Shown: positions 1-18,999 of the stretch, one piece after another
How positions within the stretch are numbered: the first letter of the stretch is position 1
Layout of the letters: every line of letters starts with the position of its first letter
NCBI GenBank assembly: GCA_018267135.1
Contig: JAFDZA010000004.1
Span: 1-64,000, forward strand
Length of the DNA: 64,000 bases
Direction of reading: 5' to 3'
DNA from: Bacteroidota bacterium
GTDB lineage: Bacteria > Bacteroidota > Bacteroidia > Cytophagales > Cyclobacteriaceae
The notes under the pieces: model-generated
Databases searched by the model: none
What the model saw: the letters and a program-made list of their open reading frames with translations, nothing else
Told to the model about the DNA's origin: nothing
Position numbers and translations under genes: made by a program

Positions 1-3000
1 AGCTATGCGGGGAGCCCTTTTTGTGCAACTGGTACCGCGAACGTAACGCAGACAGGGCAGGGCGGGGGCACCTACACTTCTACAGCCGGTTTGTCTATCA
101 ACAGTGCTACCGGCCAGCTTAATTTAGCTACGAGCACGGCCGGCACTTATACCGTTACATACAGTTTTACCAATGGAACTTGTTCTAACACTACCACTAC
201 GAGTGTTACAGTTACGGCTGTGCCTTCAGTGGCGATCAGTTACGCAGGCTCTCCATTTTGCCAATCGGTAGCAACGCCACAGGCTGTTACACAGTCGGGC
301 GGGGTAGGAGCTTATGCCGGAGGAACTTATACCGCCAGTCCGGCTGGTCTTTCTATTGACGGCCCTACCGGCAATGTTACCCCCAGTTTAAGTACGCCCG
401 GCACGTACACCGTTACTTACACTATTCCTGCATCGGGAGGCTGCCCTTCCGTTTTGGAAACGACCACGGTAACCGTTAATCCTACACCCACCGTTGTAAT
501 TACTAACCCGGCAGCAGTATGTAATCCAACTACCGTAGATTTAACGGCTGCATCTGTTACGGCCGGTTCAACTTCGGGATTAACTTTTACATACTGGACG
601 GATGCCGCGGCAACCATCGCATTAGCTACTCCTAATGCAGTTGGTACAGCCGGAACTTATTACATTAAAGGCACAACAGCAGCGGGATGTAGTGATATAC
701 AACCTGTAACCGTAACTATAAACTCCGGGCCTACCTCGGCTGTACTTAGCGGAGATAATACAATTTGTAAAGGAGTATCAACTAATCTTATCATAACAAT
801 AACAGGGGGTGCGAGCCCTTACAGTTTTACCGTGGATAACTCAGTAGGAAACATAACCGGATATATTTCGGCAAACCCTATTTCAGTTACTCCATTAACC
901 AATACGGTTTATTCAATTGTAGGAAATGTAACCGATGCCAACGGTTGTACGGTGGCCGGTAGTGGCACGGCCACCATTACGGTAAATACCCCGGCAACTC
1001 CTACCTTAACAGGCCCAGTAAATGCCTGTCAGGGCTCTACAGTAAATTATGCTACGGATGCCGGGATGACCAATTACAACTGGGTACTATCGGCTGGCGG
1101 AAGCATTACAAGTAACAATGGCGATAATATTGATGTAACCTGGAATACAGCTGGTGCACAAACGGTAAGTGTAAATTACCAAGATCTAAATTCATGCACT
1201 ACGACTACTACCGTGTTGAATGTAAGTGTAGCCAATTTAGTAGTAACACCTACCATTACCGACAATACCAATTGCCCGCCAAGTTATAATGGAGCGATTA
1301 GCTTAGCCATAAGCGGGTCTGTAGGTGTTTTGAGTTTTTCATGGACATCCGTAGGAGGCTTTACTTCAGCGGCTCAGAACATAACAAACCTTAAACCCGA
1401 TAATTACAGTTTGACAGTAACCGACCCGGTTTCGGGGTGTACTGTAACTTATACCGGATTGATTGTAAACGATAACCCACCTACTATTACAGCAACTCTT
1501 ACAGCCAGCACAGACAACAACAAGTGTGTTGCACCATTTGTTGGAGCATTGTCTATTTCTACTACCGGCTCAGTGGGCGTGCCTACATTTTCGTGGACTG
1601 GCCCGGGCGGATATACTTCCTCAAGCCAGAATATTACCGGTTTAAATGCGGGCAACTATACCGTTACGGTTACAGATCCCTCATCGGGGTGCTCAGCTAA
1701 TCAATCTTTTACGGTAAATGATATAACACCTGTTATCATTCCATCAACTAACCCAACTGATAATACTAACTGTGTTGCGCCTTTTAATGGAGCGATCACT
1801 TCTTCCGTAAGCGGAGGAGGCCCGGCTTATACCTATCAATGGAGTGGCCCTTCGGCATATACGGCTACCACGCAAAATATTTCTAATCTGGCTCCCGGCT
1901 CGTATGATTTAACCGTTACCGATGTTGCCACCGGTTGTACAGGCACGTTGTCGGGTACACTCGTAAACAACTCCCCCCCCACCATTACGGTTACTTCCGT
2001 GGCTACTACTAATGCCACTTGCTTGGGGGTTAATAACGGTCTGATTCAGGTAAATGGAGTTACAGGAGGTGCAGCCCCTTATCAGTATTCAATTGATAAT
2101 GGAGTAACTTTTCAGGCATCGAATACTTTTTCAAATATCGCACCGGGAAATTATCAGGTAGTTGCCAAAGACAATGGAGGGTGTGTATCGACCGCCTATC
2201 CGGTAACGATTACTTCCGGCACGACCATTACAGCAAGCACGGGTACAACCAATGCCACATGCGTAGGAACCACCGATGGAGCCATTACCGTAACCACTGT
2301 GGTGGGAGGCACCTCACCTTATACCTATTCGGATAACAACGGCACTACTTTTCAGGCCTCTAACAATTTCACGAATCTGGCTTCGGGCACTTATCAGGTC
2401 ATTGCCCGCGATAATAATGGTTGCCAGTCTGCTCCGGCCAGCGTAACGGTAGGTACCAATACTACCATTACATACACGGCTACACCTACCAATGCTTCTT
2501 GTGCCGGAATAAACGATGGCCAGATTGCGGTAACAGCCCCTACCGGAGGAATAGCCCCCTACACCTATTCGGATGATAATGGAGTTACCTTTCAAGCATC
2601 GGCCACTTTCAGCTTGTTAGCTCCGGGTTCTTATAATGTAGTTATTAAAGACACTAACGGTTGCTTATCAGCAGCGAGCGCCATTACAGTAGGAAGCAAT
2701 ACGACCATTTCCATTACTACAGTAAATCATACTGACGCTACTTGCTCAGGTTTAAATGATGGCTCGATTACGGTAGCGGCTGTAACAGGTGGAGTTTCGC
2801 CTTACACATATTCAACTGACAATGGAGTTACATTTCAGGCAAGCAATGCTTTTTCAAATCTTGCACCGAATACATACCAGGTGGTAGTAAAAGATTCTAA
2901 CGGGTGTATGTCAATAGCCACGGCTGTTACAGTTGGCTCCGGTTCTACTATAACAATCGTTACATCAAAAGTAGATGCCACTTGTGGAGGCAACAGCGAT

Positions 3001-11820: not shown

Positions 11821-12894
11821 ATGAAAATAATAAAATCATTTTTATCAAATGTAGTCATTGTTTTTGGGGTTGCATTCATTGCTGCATCAATGGTGTGCAA
11901 GGCTCAATCCGCACCGCGCAAAGCATTGTTGGCACTTTCAAAAGCCAATCATACTTTGGCTATAGTTGATGCCGAAAAATTAAATGTGGTTGCTCGCATA
12001 CCAGTGGGTGAAGACCCGCACGAAATCATTTCTTCTTCGGATGGAAAAACGGCTTACGTTTCTATTTATGGCGGAGGCAGTTTGCATGAACTGAATGTGA
12101 TAGACCTTATGTCGCAAAAGCCATCGCTCAATGTTGATACACGACCATTGTTTGGTCCGCACGGAATAACATTTGTCAACGGAAAAGTTTGGTTCAGTGC
12201 TGAAGGTTCTAAAGCTGTTGGCCGATATGACCCAATAGCTAACAAATTGGATTGGAGCATGGGAACGGGCGAAGACAGAACGCACATGATTTATGTTACT
12301 GCCAATGGAAAAAGAATTTATACTACCAATGTTTCTTCAGGAACGGTGAGTATTTTGGTTGATACCTTGATTTCTTTTATGCCACCTCCTGGAATGAAAC
12401 CGCCTGTAGGAAATTCGCCTCCTTCTTTTGCAAGACCACGTGCGAATTGGAATCAAACTATTGTAAAGACAGCAAGAGGCGCTGAAGGATTTGATGTATC
12501 GCCCGACAGCACTGAATTATGGACGGCTTCCGCAGAAGATGGTTTTATCTATGTTATCAATCTTAAATCAAAAAAATTGACAGATAAGATTGATGCCAAA
12601 GTTTTAGGAGCAAACCGTTTGAAGTTTACACCCAATGGCAAGTTGGCATTCATTTCAAGTTTACGCTCGGGCACTCTTTTTATTTATGATGTTAAATCAC
12701 ATAAAGAGGTTAAACAATTAAACATCGGACATGGTGCTTCTGGAATTGTGATGGACCCCGATGGCTCGCGTGCATTTGTTGCTTGCACGCCCGATAATTA
12801 TGTAGCTGTTATCGATTTGAAAACATTAGAAGTAATTCATCGCATTGATGTGAGGCAAGAACCTGATGGATTGGCGTGGGCGATTCGGCTTTAA
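11821..12894 (+). CDS. Secreted YncE-like beta-propeller protein (YVTN repeats)
   Basis: 357 residues. A signal peptide runs to about residue 30 (SMVCKAQS). The rest is a seven-bladed propeller made of YVTN/YncE-type repeats: VARIPVGEDPHEIISSSDGK, GPHGITFVNGKVWFSAEGSK, GFDVSPDSTELW, ANRLKFTPNGKLAFISS, and GHGASGIVMDPDGSRAF. Such periplasmic proteins bind ligands or DNA (YncE) or serve as scaffolds; no catalytic motif is visible. It stands alone on the plus strand, bounded downstream by the palindrome-rich accessory stretch. Substrate unknown. Confidence 0.85.
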   Translation: MKIIKSFLSNVVIVFGVAFIAASMVCKAQSAPRKALLALSKANHTLAIVDAEKLNVVARIPVGEDPHEIISSSDGKTAYVSIYGGGSLHELNVIDLMSQKPSLNVDTRPLFGPHGITFVNGKVWFSAEGSKAVGRYDPIANKLDWSMGTGEDRTHMIYVTANGKRIYTTNVSSGTVSILVDTLISFMPPPGMKPPVGNSPPSFARPRANWNQTIVKTARGAEGFDVSPDSTELWTASAEDGFIYVINLKSKKLTDKIDAKVLGANRLKFTPNGKLAFISSLRSGTLFIYDVKSHKEVKQLNIGHGASGIVMDPDGSRAFVACTPDNYVAVIDLKTLEVIHRIDVRQEPDGLAWAIRL

Positions 12895-12974
12895 TTATTT
12901 TAATGACAACTGATTCGGGCCTTTACACAGTTAGTTAGACACTACCTATGTACAACTTTAATTCCTGTGCCAAC

Positions 12975-13030
12975 GTTGGTGTTCTTCACCAACGTTTTGT
13001 TTTATAAACGTGTTGGTGAAGAACACCAAC
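12975..13030. repeat. Perfect 19-bp inverted repeat, attC-like or terminator-like element
   Basis: Arms GTTGGTGTTCTTCACCAAC (12975-12993) and its exact reverse complement (13012-13030) enclose an 18-base loop; each arm is itself partly palindromic (GTTGGTG...CACCAAC). The right flank shares 17 bases with 14010-14026. It separates the YVTN gene from the minus-strand accessory genes and sits just after the stop of the gene at 13043. Confidence 0.8.
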
Positions 13031-13040
13031 ACGGACGAGG
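13024..13040. repeat. 17-bp direct repeat, copy 1
   Basis: CACCAACACGGACGAGG, identical to 14010-14026 and in the same orientation. The two copies bracket the 298-residue gene, as boundary elements of a cassette would. Confidence 0.85.
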
Positions 13041-13042
13041 GG

Positions 13043-13939
13043 TCATTCTAAAATAATTCTTTTTTTAAGTCTCTTATAGTAGCCAATGTCGCCTACACAT
13101 GACTGATAGTCCCTTGCGTCAACTATTCCTACAACAATACCACTTGAAATAAGAACCCACACCGCACCATAATTCATACTATAACAATTCTCCGCTCTTG
13201 GCTTACCACATACCTGTAAAACTTCTTCTGGTGTCATACCGATGCGAACATTTGTCACCGCTATACTTGTTGCTTCCTTCATTTTCTTTTCGATTTCTTC
13301 TATTTCTGATAAGAGACGTTTCCCTTGTGCTTGGTATGAAGTCAATTGTTGTTTTGATTCAATCAATTGCTGATTCAAAGTATTTAATGAGGTCTGGGTT
13401 GAATCAATTTTCTTTTGTTGAACAGTCAGCTGCTTCTTAAGTCCGTTAAGTTCATAATTTTTTAGCGTGAGTTTGTTATTTGAATTTTTTAGCAATATCT
13501 TAAGGCTATCAACTGCCTCACTGCTTTTTCTTACAGAAAGTGTTTGGTTAATCCTACGCAATACTTCCTCTGGGTCAGCTATTATTTCAGCTTTGATATA
13601 ATATTCATAGCCATCCCAACGCTCTTCTAATATTTTAGTTTCGGTGATGCCAGTACTTAAAGTCTTGATTTCATTTGTAAAGAAATCTTTGGTTATTACG
13701 CCATTCTTATCTGTCACCACATGGTTTACATAACTCTCAACGTAAGTACCTAACTCTTCAATCAACATGGCTTTTACTTCAGTTAAGGCCTTTTGCCGTG
13801 AAGAAACTTTACTGTCCGTTTCACTTGCTTTGTAATAGTATTCTCTGATGAATGTCTTTTTTTGTGCAAATAAGTCATGGATAACCAATTGCATTACTAT
13901 AAAACAAAGTAGATGTCCAAATGAAAATCTTGGCCTCAT
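13043..13939 (-). CDS. Exported coiled-coil protein with BamE/SmpA-like C-terminal motif
   Basis: 298 residues. A hydrophobic signal peptide ends near LFAQ (residue 25). Residues about 30-130 form an alpha/beta region (EYYYKASETDSKVSSRQKAL, EERWDGYEYYIKAEIIAD) resembling domains seen in lipoprotein-processing proteins, though I cannot name the family. Residues about 150-215 form a coiled coil. The end contains TNVRIGMTPEEVLQVCGKPR, the core of the SmpA/OmlA (BamE) fold. Probably periplasmic. It lies between two copies of a 17-bp direct repeat, in line with acquisition as a unit, and its function is unknown. Confidence 0.7.
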   Translation of the reverse strand: MRPRFSFGHLLCFIVMQLVIHDLFAQKKTFIREYYYKASETDSKVSSRQKALTEVKAMLIEELGTYVESYVNHVVTDKNGVITKDFFTNEIKTLSTGITETKILEERWDGYEYYIKAEIIADPEEVLRRINQTLSVRKSSEAVDSLKILLKNSNNKLTLKNYELNGLKKQLTVQQKKIDSTQTSLNTLNQQLIESKQQLTSYQAQGKRLLSEIEEIEKKMKEATSIAVTNVRIGMTPEEVLQVCGKPRAENCYSMNYGAVWVLISSGIVVGIVDARDYQSCVGDIGYYKRLKKRIILE

Positions 13940-14009
13940 ATCTAAATCATTAAGTTAATTGCATATAAAACATCTTTGAACTTGATAAAATTGTTCTAGA
14001 CTCTATTAT

Positions 14010-14050
14010 CACCAACACGGACGAGGTGTAATACCTTGTTAGCAACAGGC
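14010..14050 (-). repeat. Partial attC-like element with 17-bp direct repeat copy 2
   Basis: Read on the minus strand this begins GCCTGTTGCTAACAAGG and runs into the 17-bp repeat at 14010-14026, which continues at 13024-13040 into the large inverted repeat. The CTAAC end is shared with the element at 14645-14784. It marks the boundary between the 159-residue and 298-residue genes. Confidence 0.5.
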
Positions 14051-14089
14051 ATATTTTCTATTCAGTATAATTTTAAGTCGTGACAAGTT

Positions 14090-14566
14090 TTACATCTTTA
14101 AAATATTTTCCCCTGTCAAACGCTTAAACGTAAGATTCATTTTTTCCCAAGTTTTTGGATATTGGTTGCTTCCGTCAATGTGTTTTACCGTTCCATCGTG
14201 AAAGGCAATCATGATGCTCCATTTATGACCACCATCAATATTCAGATTGTTATATTTTCCTTCCCAACTGTTAAAGCCGTTTTTATCAGCATCTGATAAA
14301 AACGAAACCACCTTGTCATCAGTGAAATTCTCCACAAAATCATAACCTTCATTTTTTGTAGACCCATTACGCTCTTTACTGCTAATACTAGCATCGTACT
14401 TCCAGAAAGATTTGTTTTTTATATCTATCTTATACTCAAGCCATGGCCGGAAAATATGATAATGACAAACGTAGATAGCATCTATTCTAACTTTCTCCTC
14501 TTTCTGAGCATTAGCACGAGAGAATAGCATAGTATATGTTATAATTATTGATAATAAATAGTTCAT
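14090..14566 (-). CDS. Small exported hypothetical protein
   Basis: From the ATG at 14566 the protein has about 158 residues; a start 11 codons upstream is possible but places charged residues before the signal sequence. The N-terminus MNYLLSIIITYTMLFSRANA is a signal peptide ending around residue 20. The mature part is rich in Trp, Tyr and Lys, with LEYKIDIKNKSFWKYDAS, NFTDDKVVSFLSDADKNGF and a GGHKWSIMIAFHDGTVKHID segment that looks like a small beta-sheet domain. I do not recognise the family. It is one of the intact genes in the accessory stretch. Confidence 0.65.
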   Translation of the reverse strand: MNYLLSIIITYTMLFSRANAQKEEKVRIDAIYVCHYHIFRPWLEYKIDIKNKSFWKYDASISSKERNGSTKNEGYDFVENFTDDKVVSFLSDADKNGFNSWEGKYNNLNIDGGHKWSIMIAFHDGTVKHIDGSNQYPKTWEKMNLTFKRLTGENILKM

Positions 14567-14644
14567 TTTTATTATTTCTTTCAACCTCTTGTGTTGCACT
14601 TATTAGTTGAACTTAGATATTATTAGTCCGATGTTCGCACTTAT

Positions 14645-14784
14645 TGCAGCTAACGATAGGCAACTTTCGTTCGGGCGGGAAACCGAAGCTCGTCTGCTGA
14701 ATTTATTACTAATGTTTAATCGAAGAACTAATGTTGAGTTTTGCACTTCAGCCAGCCTGACGCAAAACTGTTTGTTATCAGCAG
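14645..14784 (-). repeat. 140-bp imperfect palindrome, attC-like recombination site candidate
   Basis: The two ends are imperfect inverted repeats. On the plus strand the left end begins TGCAGCTAACGATAGGCAAC; the reverse complement of the right end begins CTGCTGATAACAAACAG. Both continue with TTTCGTTCGGGCGGG-like versus TTTTGCGTCAGGCTGG-like blocks and then GAAGC/GAAGTGC. The terminal TAAC/GTTA boxes, the imperfect pairing and the position after a gene's stop resemble integron attC sites. No integrase gene is in the window. Confidence 0.45.
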
Positions 14785-14793
14785 TCCTTTTTT

Positions 14794-15231
14794 TTAATAT
14801 CGCATTCTCCAGCCAGTTATTAGTCCGTTCTCAACGGTGAACAAGAAGTTGGCTTTGTTTGTGTAGCCACGGCTTGAATATTGTCCTTTTACAACCACAT
14901 CATTTTTACTAATTACGGTAAATTCAGGATTTGTAACTTTTCCTTGACGCTCAATTATGTCACTTTCTAACTATTTTTTGGTTTCTTCGGCTGTTTTCAT
15001 TATTCCGTCTGCTCCATACGCTTGGTTTGCTGTTTTAGCAAATTGAGCTCGGATAAGCTTAGCATTTTCTGCTTTCATAGCTTCAATCAAAGCTTTTACG
15101 GGTTTTAATATCGTTTCGTCTTGTATTTTGTTTTCTTTTTTACTTTTCTCTGTATTTTGATTGTTTTTTGTTTGCTGTCCGCAAGCAGTGAGCGAAAGCG
15201 AACAAACTAAAACCAGTGTTAATATTTTCAT
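14794..15231 (-). pseudogene. NTF2/SnoaL-like lipoprotein, interrupted by in-frame TAG
   Basis: The frame from 15231 begins with a lipoprotein signal (SLSLTACGQQ, Cys17), then VKALIEAMKAENAKLIRAQF, typical of NTF2-like proteins. A TAG at 14971-14973 (codon 87) stops it, but the same frame continues another 58 codons to TAA at 14794-14796 with family-like sequence (LESDIIERQGKVTNPEF, VVVKGQYSSRGYTN, FLFTVENGLITGWRMRY). The stop sits just before LESDII, where I would expect Trp, so one TGG-to-TAG change explains it. The full frame gives 145 residues, a normal length. It could be a recent pseudogene, an assembly error or a read-through gene. It lies 4 bp downstream of the membrane protein gene at 15236 and probably shared its transcript. 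Confidence 0.75.
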
Positions 15232-15235
15232 ATTT

Positions 15236-15586
15236 TTAATTATTTTTCAAAGGATGTTGCAGATAGATGATTACTAAATTAAGTAGTAAAAAAGGTATTT
15301 CTATCGCTACACCTTTTAGGTCTTTGTTCAATAATTGCAGACAGATAATCATCAATATTCCTGCTGCCATCAGGAAATTTCCCCACACGAATGTTTTGGG
15401 AAATAATATCAAAACCGAAGCTAGTAATGTTATTGCCCCGTTGATGACAACGGCATTTTTACTAAAATTCCATTTGCCAAACATTTCCAGCATTTCAGGT
15501 TTTGCAGTAAGCATATTCCAACCGTGTTTTGTTCCCATAAATACAGCTACAAGAATTAGAATAGTGTTGATTATTTTTAGTATCAT
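15236..15586 (-). CDS. Small four-helix membrane protein, DoxX-like
   Basis: 116 residues from the ATG at 15586 (a TTG nine codons upstream is possible). Four hydrophobic segments are seen: [56 protein letters not shown] and a final FLLLNLVIIYL. The GTKHGWNML loop after helix 1 and overall size recall the DoxX-like family of inner membrane proteins, often redox-linked, but no diagnostic residue decides it. It is intact and directly upstream of the interrupted NTF2-like lipoprotein gene. Confidence 0.65.
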   Translation of the reverse strand: MILKIINTILILVAVFMGTKHGWNMLTAKPEMLEMFGKWNFSKNAVVINGAITLLASVLILFPKTFVWGNFLMAAGILMIICLQLLNKDLKGVAIEIPFLLLNLVIIYLQHPLKNN

Positions 15587-15655
15587 CGTTATAAGATTTA
15601 TAATAAAAGGCAAATAACTTAGTCATTTCCTTTCTAAAAATACAAAATTGTTTTT

Positions 15656-15994
15656 TTATCTTGTTGTGTAGCCACCATTTGCAAAAATGGTTTGTTCTGT
15701 AATCCACTAGCCATCAGTAACTAAGAACTCTACCAATGGTGCGATGTCTTTAATATCTGTTAACCCACCCAAATCAGATGCTTGTTTGTGGTAAGCAACG
15801 GCATCATCACTTTCTTGTCCATAAAAGAAGGGAGTGTCCATTGGATCCGGTGCAACTGCTGTAACAGAAATTCCACGAGAGCCAAATTCTTTAGAAGCTG
15901 CTCTGGTAAAATGTTCTACTGGTGCTTTTGCTCCTGCATAAGTAGAACGGTTTGCGGCTTGGCGAAGTGACGAATTTTTAGCACAAAAGTTCAA
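15656..15994 (-). pseudogene. C-terminal fragment of short-chain dehydrogenase, with in-frame TAG
   Basis: Only the last third of a short-chain dehydrogenase/reductase remains: TYAGAKAPVEHFTRAASKEF carries the YxxxK catalytic motif, then SRGISVTAVAPDPMDTPFFY and LTDIKDIAPLVEFLVTDG. The NAD-binding Rossmann half (TGxxxGIG) is absent; upstream is attC-like DNA. A TAG at 15707-15709 replaces the first Trp of the DGWW motif known in this SDR group; the frame then continues WITEQTIFANGGYTTR to TAA at 15656-15658. Both the missing N-terminus and the stop mark it as non-functional. Truncation at the palindromic element suggests recombination there. Confidence 0.85.
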
Positions 15995-16036
15995 TTGAAG
16001 AACTGTCTTGAACCTGCAACAAAACTGTCATACGAA

Positions 16037-16077
16037 GCACTGAACCCGCCATTACGCCAAACCGCTGTTATCTGCTG
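16037..16077 (-). repeat. Half of an attC-like element
   Basis: On the minus strand it reads GCAGATAACAGCGGTTTGGC then GTAATGGCGGGTTCAGTGC. This lines up with the right half of the 14645-14784 element (GCTGATAACA-..GTTTTGCGT..AGTGC). It follows the stop of the gene at 16090 and abuts the truncated SDR, so the matching half seems lost. Confidence 0.45.
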
Positions 16078-16089
16078 TGTTTTTGTCTG

Positions 16090-16776
16090 TCAAGTCGTTG
16101 CCTTATTTAATTGTTCGTCAAACCAAATAAGTTCATTCGGAATTTTCTTTTGTAAATATTCATTCCAACTACTCCAGCTAAACATTTGGCTTGTATGTCG
16201 GATAAATATTAGCTGTGTTTCGTTCTTGTCTTTGTCTTTTAACACTGCTATCTTTGCATAGGCATTACGGATGTAATCTTCCCATTTCACTCCATCAGTA
16301 GAAAATTCTGTGCCTTGAACTGCGTGTGCAAGTGAATTTGCTGCACTTGTCCCAATAAACAGACAAGTCTTTGGTTTAAGCAATTGAATAATTTCCAAAA
16401 ACGGAAACCAACTATTGTAGAAGTCATCATAGCTTGGTCGTCCTTTGCTAGTTTCCATTGGTCGTTGAATGAAATTATAAAACGAAACTAAATTCCAAAA
16501 GGTCGGACTGTCAAATTCGTCATTCCTAAATAATGCTCTATGTAAGTTCGGAAATATTTTTGTTCCATAATACCTACGTTCTATCGCAAGCTCTTCAATA
16601 ACTTCCCTTGTGAAAGTAGGCGAGTTGTTTTTCTCAATAGAGTCAGGCGTATTGTCGTGGTAGTGGCTTTCGCCAACAATTAGAAGTTTATTGTCAATTG
16701 AAATGGAATTGAAACGGTCACCAACCCAAGGCAACCACTTCAAATTCTTAACTTGTAAAAATTGTTCATCTGCCAT
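16090..16776 (-). CDS. Uracil-DNA-glycosylase-fold-like protein of unknown function
   Basis: 228 residues, no signal peptide, apparently intact. LLIVGESHYHDNTPDS (about residues 31-46) and a later KTCLFIGTSAANSL are in the order of the two conserved strands of uracil-DNA-glycosylase-like folds (cf. VGExPG and the later strand), and LIFIRHTSQMFSWSSW resembles the final HPS-type motif. The catalytic Asp/Asn of true uracil-DNA glycosylases is not evident, so a DNA-repair activity is not claimed. It is the best-preserved gene of the accessory stretch, with an attC-like half element right after its stop codon. Confidence 0.6.
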   Translation of the reverse strand: MADEQFLQVKNLKWLPWVGDRFNSISIDNKLLIVGESHYHDNTPDSIEKNNSPTFTREVIEELAIERRYYGTKIFPNLHRALFRNDEFDSPTFWNLVSFYNFIQRPMETSKGRPSYDDFYNSWFPFLEIIQLLKPKTCLFIGTSAANSLAHAVQGTEFSTDGVKWEDYIRNAYAKIAVLKDKDKNETQLIFIRHTSQMFSWSSWNEYLQKKIPNELIWFDEQLNKATT

Positions 16777-16811
16777 TGTGTTACAGTTTTGTCTATGAGT
16801 GAAAAGTTGCG

Positions 16812-17000
16812 TTAGGACATGTAAGCATGTGTAAGCAAATCCATTTTGGTCCGCTCAAAAAAAGAACTTTCCAATATCTGTCGAAGTGATGTTGCCATTT
16901 TTGTTAAAAAAATCGCCTTGAAAACCATCAACAAAATCATACGCTTTGTCGCCAGCCCTAAAATTGATTTGTCAGGAAGCTTAGATTTTGTTACTGTCAT
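16812..17000 (-). pseudogene. DUF2867 remnant with two frameshifts
   Basis: The 63-residue open frame starts MTVTKSKLPDKSILG, which is the start of a DUF2867-type protein. The family signature then moves to a second frame (AYDFVDGFQGDFFNKNGNIT, then STDIGKFFF) and again to a third frame (SGPKWICL) after a run of T residues near 16860. Reading across frames gives the expected order of conserved blocks (YDFVD, ITSTDIGKFFF, GPKW), but the protein breaks off after about 60 of roughly 150 residues. It is therefore a decayed, truncated gene. A different explanation, base-calling errors in homopolymers, is possible for the frameshifts but not for the truncation. Confidence 0.75.
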
Positions 17001-17085
17001 TTATTCTATTATCTAATCTCGCAGCGGGGTGGCTTTACAATGAGCGCCAACTTCTGAGTATAAGCAATATAACCTGAAAATAATT

Positions 17086-18999
17086 TTATTTCCCTTCCAA
17101 CTCCTCAATCTCCAAAGCAATTGATTCCCACTTTTTGTTTTCTTCTTCTAACTGTGCATCTGCTTTTTCAAACTTTTGTTGTTGTTCGTTGAGTTTATTG
17201 ATGTCGCTATAAACTTCGGGCTTTGCCATTTTATTTTCTATGACTTCTTTTTCAGAAACTAATTTTTGTACATGTTCTTCTACTTGCTTCAACTCTTTGT
17301 GTAGTGCGTTGAGTTTATTTTGATTGCTTGGTGCTGCTGCAGGTTTCGGTTCTTTCTTCGGAGTTTCTTTTTTTGCTACGGGGGCAGTGTGAATTTTATT
17401 GGCTTCGTTTTGTTTATGCCAATATTCATACTCTTCATACGTGCCGGGATATTCTTTGATCTGATGATTTTCGATATACCAAATCTTATTGGCAACACCG
17501 CTCACAAAATGACGGTTGTGGCTCACGGTGATGAACGTGCCTTGATATTGTTGCAAGGCTTGAATCAAAATATTTTCAGAGATAAAATCCAAGTGATTGG
17601 TTGGCTCATCGAGCAATAAAAAGTTTGCTTCATCAATCAATGTCTTCGCCAATGCCACACGCGATTTTTCACCTCCCGAAAGCACTTTTATTTTTTTGAA
17701 CACATCTTCATCTTGAAACAAAAAGCAACCCAGCACATTGCGCAGTTCTTGTTCGGTCTTGCCACTGCCTGCTTGTTTCAGTTCATCCAAAATTTCATTT
17801 TCAACATGAAGGGATTCTAACTGATGCTGTGCATAAAATCCATAAATTACATTGTAGCCAATCGTGCGCTCACCGGTTACAGGTTCAGTGTTGGCAAGAA
17901 TGCGTAACAACGTTGACTTGCCTTTTCCATTCGCACCAATCAATGCTATTTTATCGCCACGCTCAATCGTGGCGTTTGTGTTTTTCAAAATATCGAGCGC
18001 ACCATACGCTTTTGAAACATCTTTCAACGTAATCACATGTCGCCCCGATGGTTGTTTGAAAGTAAACTTGAAATTTACTTCGGCCACATCGCTCACCACT
18101 TCTTCAATTTTATCCATGCGGTCGAGTGCCTTCACGCGCGATTGTACTTGGCGTGCTTTCGTTGCCTTTGAGCGGAAACGTTCGATAAACCGTTCGGTTT
18201 GTCTAATTTTTGCTTGCTGATTTTCATAAGCCCCCTGCTGAATCTCTTCGCGCAATTCTTTTTCTTCGAGATAGAAAGAATAATTTCCCTCGTAAGTAAT
18301 CAACTGCGAGTTGGTTACTTCAATTGTTTTGTTGATGACATTATCCAAAAAAGTTCTATCGTGCGAAACGATGATGACTGCGCCAGCATAATTGCGCAAG
18401 TAATTTTCAACCCATTCAATCGAGGGCAAGTCCAAGTGATTGGTTGGTTCATCGAGCATCAAGCATGAAGGTTTTTCGAGCAACAGCTTGGCGAGCATCA
18501 CACGCATGCGCCAACCGCCCGAAAATTCCTTTAATGGCCGATGTAAATCTTGTGTTGAAAAACCAATCCCTTCCAAAATCTCTTCGGCTTTGGATTGCAT
18601 GGTGTAGCCATCAAGCTGTTCAAACTTTTCTTGCAAGTGCGTGAGTTTGTCAACCAAATCATCGCTGTAATCTGTTTCGAGCTTGTGCAATATTTTTTCA
18701 ATCTGCCGTTGCGTTTCCACCGCTTCTTTAAATGCTTCCATGGCCACGGTAAGAATGGCATCGTCTGTTTGGTAGGAGAGGAGATCCTGATTAAGAAAAC
18801 CAATGGTACAATCTTTTGCTTTGCTGATAGAGCCTTCGTTTATACTTAACTCACCGCTGAGGATTTTCAGCAGCGTAGATTTGCCACGGCCGTTCAACCC
18901 GATTAAACCGATTTTGTCGTTAGGTCGAATGAACGCAGACGCATTTTCATACAACGCGCGCCCACCAATGAAATAAGAGATGTTAGAAACGGAAATCAT
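17086..18999 (-). CDS. ABC-F family ATPase (Uup/YdiF type)
   Basis: 637 residues with two ABC ATPase domains and no membrane segments. Domain 1: Walker A GLNGRGKST (about 34-42), signature LKEFSGGWRMR, Walker B CLMLDEPTNHLD. Domain 2: Walker A GANGKGKST (about 354-362), signature LSGGEKSR, Walker B FLLLDEPTNHLD. Between them is the charged linker, with ERFRSKATKARQVQSR typical of the ABC-F P-site tRNA interaction motif. The C-terminal 90 residues form a coiled coil, as in Uup. ABC-F proteins bind the ribosomal E site to release stalls or protect from antibiotics; which of these applies cannot be told. A TATCTTTG -7 element (minus strand, 19017-19024) precedes it. Confidence 0.95.
   Translation of the reverse strand: MISVSNISYFIGGRALYENASAFIRPNDKIGLIGLNGRGKSTLLKILSGELSINEGSISKAKDCTIGFLNQDLLSYQTDDAILTVAMEAFKEAVETQRQIEKILHKLETDYSDDLVDKLTHLQEKFEQLDGYTMQSKAEEILEGIGFSTQDLHRPLKEFSGGWRMRVMLAKLLLEKPSCLMLDEPTNHLDLPSIEWVENYLRNYAGAVIIVSHDRTFLDNVINKTIEVTNSQLITYEGNYSFYLEEKELREEIQQGAYENQQAKIRQTERFIERFRSKATKARQVQSRVKALDRMDKIEEVVSDVAEVNFKFTFKQPSGRHVITLKDVSKAYGALDILKNTNATIERGDKIALIGANGKGKSTLLRILANTEPVTGERTIGYNVIYGFYAQHQLESLHVENEILDELKQAGSGKTEQELRNVLGCFLFQDEDVFKKIKVLSGGEKSRVALAKTLIDEANFLLLDEPTNHLDFISENILIQALQQYQGTFITVSHNRHFVSGVANKIWYIENHQIKEYPGTYEEYEYWHKQNEANKIHTAPVAKKETPKKEPKPAAAPSNQNKLNALHKELKQVEEHVQKLVSEKEVIENKMAKPEVYSDINKLNEQQQKFEKADAQLEEENKKWESIALEIEELEGK

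Follow-up and report, generated by a model that had tools for sequence, protein, structure and literature searches.

The stretch of DNA analysed here (the window, 64,000 nucleotides) is part of contig C25 in the 3.4-Mb genome of a Bacteroidota bacterium of the family Cyclobacteriaceae. Between a YncE-like gene (11821-12894, plus strand) and an ABC-F gene (17086-18999, minus strand), it contains a run of small genes and gene remnants, all on the minus strand and several of them broken, together with elements resembling the attC recombination sites of integrons. We describe this array, a better preserved array on contig C6, and the tyrosine recombinase that heads the latter. The two arms of an attC-type site are called R'' (ending in AAC) and R' (beginning with GTT). 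The features of the window array are as follows.

17029-17051, minus strand: sequence resembling a cassette start, GTTGGCGCTCATTGTAAAGCC (regular-expression search and comparison with cassette starts of other arrays).
16090-16776, minus strand: intact 228-aa open reading frame (ORF), a cassette gene (ORF call and Pfam).
15940-16075, minus strand: complete attC-type site with R'' GCAGATAAC and R' GTTCTACTT (covariance model R1, 45.7 bits, E 6e-9; repeats in relatives).
15707-15949, minus strand: 3' fragment of a short-chain dehydrogenase (SDR) gene, 5' part gone (Pfam PF13561, E 2.9e-13, profile 133-219).
15236-15613, minus strand: DoxX-like gene (Pfam PF13564, E 8.9e-7).
14797-15231, minus strand: lipoprotein-like gene with one in-frame stop at 14971 (translation).
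14646-14782, minus strand: complete, degraded attC-type site with R'' GCTGATAAC and R' GTTAGCTGC (covariance model R1, 38.7 bits, E 2.3e-7).
14090-14599, minus strand: 169-aa ORF, a cassette gene with no assigned function (ORF call and Pfam).
14030-14050, minus strand: R''-like remnant of a third site, GTTGCTAAC, also given as GTTGCTAACAAGG (sequence).
13043-13939, minus strand: 298-aa ORF with a coiled coil (ORF call, Pfam and covariance-model scan).
12975-13040, no strand assigned: element like a repetitive extragenic palindrome (REP), a perfect 19-nt inverted repeat with a CACCAACACGGACGAGG tail (repeat search, covariance model and genome comparison).

The cassette-start-like sequence is 35 nt from the stop codon of the ABC-F gene and probably marks the upstream border of the array. 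The 228-aa ORF has weak similarity, under the Pfam cut-off, to the uracil-DNA-glycosylase superfamily, and the probable start of the 169-aa ORF is the ATG at 14566. Membership of the 298-aa ORF in the array is unsure because no attC site follows the gene, and a further short ORF is doubtful. An earlier note on this DNA, made from the sequence alone, had described seven genes on one strand, several in decay. The minus-strand run and the broken genes were correctly seen, and the count of seven was loose: a recount gives three ORFs, the DoxX gene, the SDR fragment, the interrupted lipoprotein gene and the doubtful ORF. That this is a relic array, as the note proposed, agrees with the in-frame stop in the lipoprotein-like gene, the SDR gene cut at a GTT, and R'/R'' pairs that are mismatched.

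Two further observations concern this array. The break in the SDR gene, at 15949, coincides exactly with the GTT of an attC-type site and is of the kind expected from insertion at a secondary (attG-like) target; the rest of the gene, its 5' part, was not found. Upstream of the 169-aa gene, at 14579-14618, lies a 35-40-nt sequence, CTAAGTTCAACTAATAAGTGCAACACAAG, that recurs near the starts or ends of contigs C22, C24, C26 and C4 of genome G000 and is probably the end of a multi-copy insertion sequence.

Covariance model R1 was built from sites on other contigs, and neither window site was in its training set. Because RNAalifold returned no structure from the MAFFT alignment, the structure was derived by column pairing and supplied by hand. 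The decayed window sites are missed by a stem scanner at strict threshold and are detected by the covariance model alone; Rfam matched nothing in the window. Four elements had been taken for attC sites in an integron-cassette layout. The layout is borne out by the sites at 15940-16075 and 14646-14782, the two that R1 matches in the locus. The proposed element 14645-14784 is accordingly a complete site, and 16037-16077 is the first third of another. The element at 14010-14050 is only a half-remnant, a composite in which the R''-like remnant is joined to half of another repeat. This remnant lies after the 169-aa gene, and its complement, GTTAGCAAC, has the same first six bases as the R' of the 14646-14782 site. 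The palindrome at 12975-13040 was ruled out as attC, as it gives no model match and is a different repeat. The repeat with the CACCAACACGGACGAGG tail spans about 12963-13046, the tail is shared with about 14008-14026, and the palindrome is also found near the end of contig C22.

The elements at 12975-13040 and 14010-14026 are dispersed repeats, and the window sites are degraded. All of the elements might on this ground be mere dispersed palindromic repeats, REP or similar to miniature inverted-repeat transposable elements, unrelated to cassettes. However, two window sites match the model with AAC/GTT arms, and elsewhere the same type of site forms arrays with paired ends and, for the most part, a single gene in each unit. 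Further copies in the genome, which the earlier note advised seeking, are present on contigs C6, C12, C26, C4 and, weakly, C13; these sit in arrays with mostly one gene per unit, not at places without genes. The dispersed-repeat explanation, already disfavoured for 14646-14782 and 15940-16075, is extremely unlikely.

On contig C6 the array is better preserved than in the window, where it is orphaned and decayed. It is headed by a gene for a 387-aa tyrosine recombinase (1226-2389, minus strand). The first cassette begins just over 110 nt past the recombinase stop codon; it opens with GTTGTACGC and closes with the perfectly complementary GCGTACAAC, and the cassette after it has the pair GTTGTGTGC and GCACACAAC. 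Thus the statement that no integrase was seen holds for the window and not for the genome, whose integrase on contig C6 is not a canonical IntI.

Contig C6 and record L139, from a metagenome-assembled genome (MAG) of the same species (SZAS-27), have 3,887 identical nucleotides that run through the recombinase gene and the adjoining attI, up to ACAGACGTT. After this point, and directly after GTT, they carry different first cassettes, each with matching R' and R''. Likewise, two Salinimicrobium strains are 93% identical through the recombinase gene and diverge 3 nt past GTT. An attI beside the integrase gene, as in integrons, is therefore marked by GTT divergence points in two pairs of records, and similar sequences occur at many loci, ~20-150 nt after the recombinase stop codon and often with an inverted repeat inside. 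Precise replacement of a cassette within a species, anticipated for the window locus, was found at the attI GTT of contig C6 instead. The first cassette of L139 (~5.5 kb) encodes a type IIG restriction-modification system. Cassettes that are large and hold several genes, among them restriction-modification and other defence-like ones, occur in L139 (3885-9462), L151 (15698-20612) and L147 (15483-20199), and arrays with such cassettes may store anti-phage systems.

Scanning 84,980 species at one genome each turned up at least 489 related loci. The best 80, fetched with organism names, come mainly from Bacteroidota, with a few from Cloacimonadota, Marinimicrobia and others. All 92 covariance-model matches in these 80 loci are downstream of the recombinase and on the same strand, and an independent stem scan places 55 sites in 254 kb downstream as compared with 2 in 591 kb upstream. 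Of the 33 loci with 2 kb or more of downstream sequence, the model matches 23. In 36 of the 80 loci the contig ends less than 1 kb away on the downstream side of the recombinase, and in 8 on the upstream side, the pattern that assembly-breaking repeats would cause. Array genes are mostly single per unit and co-oriented. Across five arrays, R' and R'' are complementary at 9 of 9 positions in 44 of 47 consecutive cassettes, as compared with 10% when shuffled. Two marks of an integron, attC sites (R'' and R' with AAC and GTT, imperfect hairpin) and tandem cassettes with their own complementary R' and R'', are therefore present, the second in these five arrays, contig C6 and L139 but not in the decayed window cassettes. 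A common short leader, similar to CATTNTAANACGACA, comes after the R' box in many cassettes (e.g., L048, L050, L051 and L186).

The closest solved relative of the C6 recombinase is the Vibrio cholerae integron integrase (2a3v). Opposite residues 189-242 of 2a3v, the C6 recombinase has only 11 residues. The lysine motif and HxRH are 63-66 residues apart in ~97 family recombinases (one of them not measurable), as compared with 106 in seven canonical IntI proteins; this spacing shows that the ~42-residue I2 region is absent from the family, which is related to IntI. No family member tested passed the curated IntI cut-off (TIGR02249). The IntI-specific I2 domain is therefore missing by spacing, by the gap against 2a3v and by TIGR02249 score. 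A TIGR02249 screen at E 1e-30 under-counts the family, and a dedicated profile, A3, recovers more members. In a first tree, IntI and the I2-less set form two distinct clades (SH-aLRT 100 and 98, respectively); a second tree, built with different outgroups and four additional rows, does not resolve the I2-less set, which needs two changes there. Archaeal XerA structures are the top structural matches of the predicted integrase core, a model (pLDDT 78.9, from six sequences) that supports the general fold only. No close relative of the integrase was found in phage records. The complete genome G040 has a near-identical 326-aa recombinase (~218 bits to A3) in at least eight places; transposable-element-like behaviour is thus seen among relatives of the family too.

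Nearly all family members have a ~60-residue domain before the core, in one to three copies. This domain is found in 90 of 96 I2-less recombinases (~94%; some near-duplicates included), in none of 29 IntI proteins and in none of six others. The sole significant match of the domain profile in the PDB is the HARP domain of SMARCAL1 (4o66, E 3.8e-4), and the predicted domain structure (pLDDT 96.8) ranks 4o66 first in Foldseek (probability 0.92, E 0.05). Pfam HARP (PF07443) gives weak matches in 7 of 22 members (best E 0.0022), and the VIA comparison with HARP gives Z 4.0 and rmsd 1.8 over 46 residues, which is not above background. The HARP domain is important for fork reversal (PMC4666394). The HARP-like domain or domains of the integrase may help to handle or recognize folded attC, replacing I2.

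Sites are found in 18 of 19 genomes that carry the I2-less gene, with up to 58 in a genome. Among 59 relatives, 48 have sites: 29 of the 30 with the gene (median 14) as compared with 19 of the 29 without it (median 3), an association with p 1.5e-4, uncorrected for kinship. Several attC-rich genomes first scored as negative carry the gene, which in G036 and G039 is on the same contig, just before the array. Of 392 genomes sampled from the phylum, 107 have a canonical IntI. In the matches listed from this sample, G095 (C40, 3592-4530, a canonical I2-bearing IntI over cut-off) is the only genome of the same class as the window; the other matches listed are from other classes.

A canonical I2-bearing IntI could move the cassettes in trans, with the I2-less recombinase at the head of the array as a passenger, since GTT and complementary R boxes are attC features that IntI uses and IntI occurs in the phylum at the frequency just given. 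Yet IntI exceeds the cut-off in none of the 19 array-bearing genomes and none of the 59 relatives, the I2-less recombinase invariably occupies the attI end, and the attC model has no match at 30 canonical IntI loci (in flanks of only ~1.5 kb). Action of IntI in trans is thus very unlikely indeed. The host proteins XerC and XerD might alternatively move the cassettes, as for integrative elements that exploit Xer, with the I2-less gene being regulatory or inert. Nearly all relatives have XerC and XerD, including array-bearing ones without the I2-less gene, but array position and attI are linked to that gene, and genomes with Xer alone often have no sites. We consider this explanation very unlikely as well.

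We conclude, with a probability of about 0.84, that the window contains an orphaned, decaying cassette array of an integron-type system whose platform is on contig C6 and has the I2-less recombinase at its head. Clusters of attC sites lacking an integron integrase are known as CALINs, and the window array is one of these. The system appears to be an undescribed variant of the integron rather than a member of the canonical family. Its platform consists of the recombinase gene, an attI ~110 nt past the stop codon, and cassettes in the same orientation. Each cassette usually comprises one gene and an attC-type site, with the first nine bases (R') complementing the outer arm (R'') of its own site. 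The I2-less recombinase is the probable enzyme, and attC is probably used as a folded single strand. Strand exchange would take place within the GTT of attI and of folded attC, such that cassettes would join at attI, 3' of the recombinase gene, and leave by attC x attC recombination. Off-target insertion or a rearrangement is the probable origin of the window array, which would then have decayed.

Several points weigh against this conclusion. The R'/R'' pairs of the window cassettes no longer match, and no empty site was found for the window array, the YncE-like neighbour being found in only 2 of 18 relatives. Model matches are absent from ten of the 33 loci for which 2 kb or more of downstream sequence is available, and sites do occur in 19 of the 29 relatives scored as lacking the recombinase. 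The training sites of R1 were selected partly by stem complementarity, which biases covariation counts. Assignment of the N-terminal domain as HARP-like is of moderate strength, many of the records analysed are MAGs, and recombination is deduced from sequence comparison.

In the rAID (recombinase-associated acquired interbacterial defence) clusters of Bacteroidales, a tyrosine recombinase precedes a series of short genes in the same orientation with motifs in the intergenic stretches, and a 2025 preprint calls the mode of their gene acquisition unresolved (PMC12247911). Gut clusters of this layout, immunity-gene arrays by annotation, are present on plasmids of Parabacteroides distasonis (L251, 5854-12942) and Bacteroides ovatus (L255, 8857-18936). 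In the second tree, where these two recombinases stand for clusters of rAID layout, both group within the I2-less set (SH-aLRT 99 with three members). Of the junctions, 4 of 6 in L251 and 6 of 14 in L255 have complementary R' and R'' at 8 of 8 positions, with ATTA for GTTA (shuffled, 12% and 4%, respectively), which suggests that rAID clusters are cassette arrays. Pfam identifies no immunity family among the window genes, and the window is thus not an orphan-immunity-gene array of the rAID kind.

A fragment of such a system is also found on an Acinetobacter indicus plasmid (L253, 4052-6207), where a truncated recombinase adjoins tet(X3). The recombinase fragment shares 74% identity, across 221 columns, with the I2-less integrase of Thermoflexibacter ruber and is followed by an attI-like sequence. 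After tet(X3) comes an attC-type half-site, the first half only, which over 70 nt has 84% identity with a site in the relative G055; this half-site ends where sequence common to many other plasmids begins. As the start, GTTATGTGC, has no matching R'' after the gene, tet(X3) was rejected as an intact cassette and is described only as within a fragment of such a system. A plasmid of Chryseobacterium sp. SNU WT5 (L252, 5965-11763) has an I2-less integrase with a HARP-like domain, named 'site-specific tyrosine recombinase/integron integrase' by the annotation pipeline PGAP, and a downstream array that includes one 140-nt site in three copies.

Published work presents the I2 helix as a requirement for cassette capture and as the innovation from which integrons arose (PMC7790495, PMC4792948); surveys of integrons pick out or identify integrases by the I2 domain (PMC2426708, PMC9668308). 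For Bacteroidetes, IntegronFinder 2.0 names Salinibacter ruber as the bearer of the complete integron (PMC9024848). We found no description of I2-less integrons in the literature searched, which took in few subscription papers. A broader proposal is that Bacteroidota and some related phyla have a second integron machine, with an I2-less integrase, HARP-like domains as a fork-binding module that handles folded attC, and a 3' attI; that this machine also underlies rAID arrays; and that a fragment of it reached Acinetobacter tet(X3) plasmids. To this proposal as a whole we give even odds. If integron-like platforms without I2 are indeed widespread, I2 would not be essential to the integron principle, many Bacteroidota integrons would have been missed, natural enzymes would be available for testing how recombination of folded attC arose, and there would be a direct bearing on gene acquisition by rAID clusters.

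In comparison with known systems, the arrays share with IntI integrons (class 1, Vibrio superintegrons and archaeal) attC sites of 120-165 nt that form hairpins with R'' ending in AAC and R' beginning with GTT, mostly one gene per cassette, co-orientation, an attI-like point and replacement at GTT. Unlike in those integrons, the integrase has no I2 and has N-terminal HARP-like domains, and the array is 3' of the integrase gene; an attI at the 3' side has also been reported in archaeal integrons (PMC9668308). The recombinase resembles XerA, XerC and XerD in fold and catalytic layout. The Xer proteins, however, are known as chromosome-dimer enzymes and score ~110-165 bits with A3 (>290 for full-length family members), and none of six Xer-type recombinases tested has the HARP-like domain. 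The rAID clusters are described as immunity-gene arrays without a capture mechanism, whereas the cassettes here are of mixed function, and the rAID-like sites are shorter (~45-55 nt), have ATTA in place of GTTA and give no R1 match. As in a CALIN, the window has two attC-type sites within 4.2 kb, called with R1 rather than with the attC model of IntegronFinder, and no recombinase among the surrounding ORFs. Unlike in a CALIN, the genome of the window encodes a plausible recombinase elsewhere, one that IntI models do not recognize.

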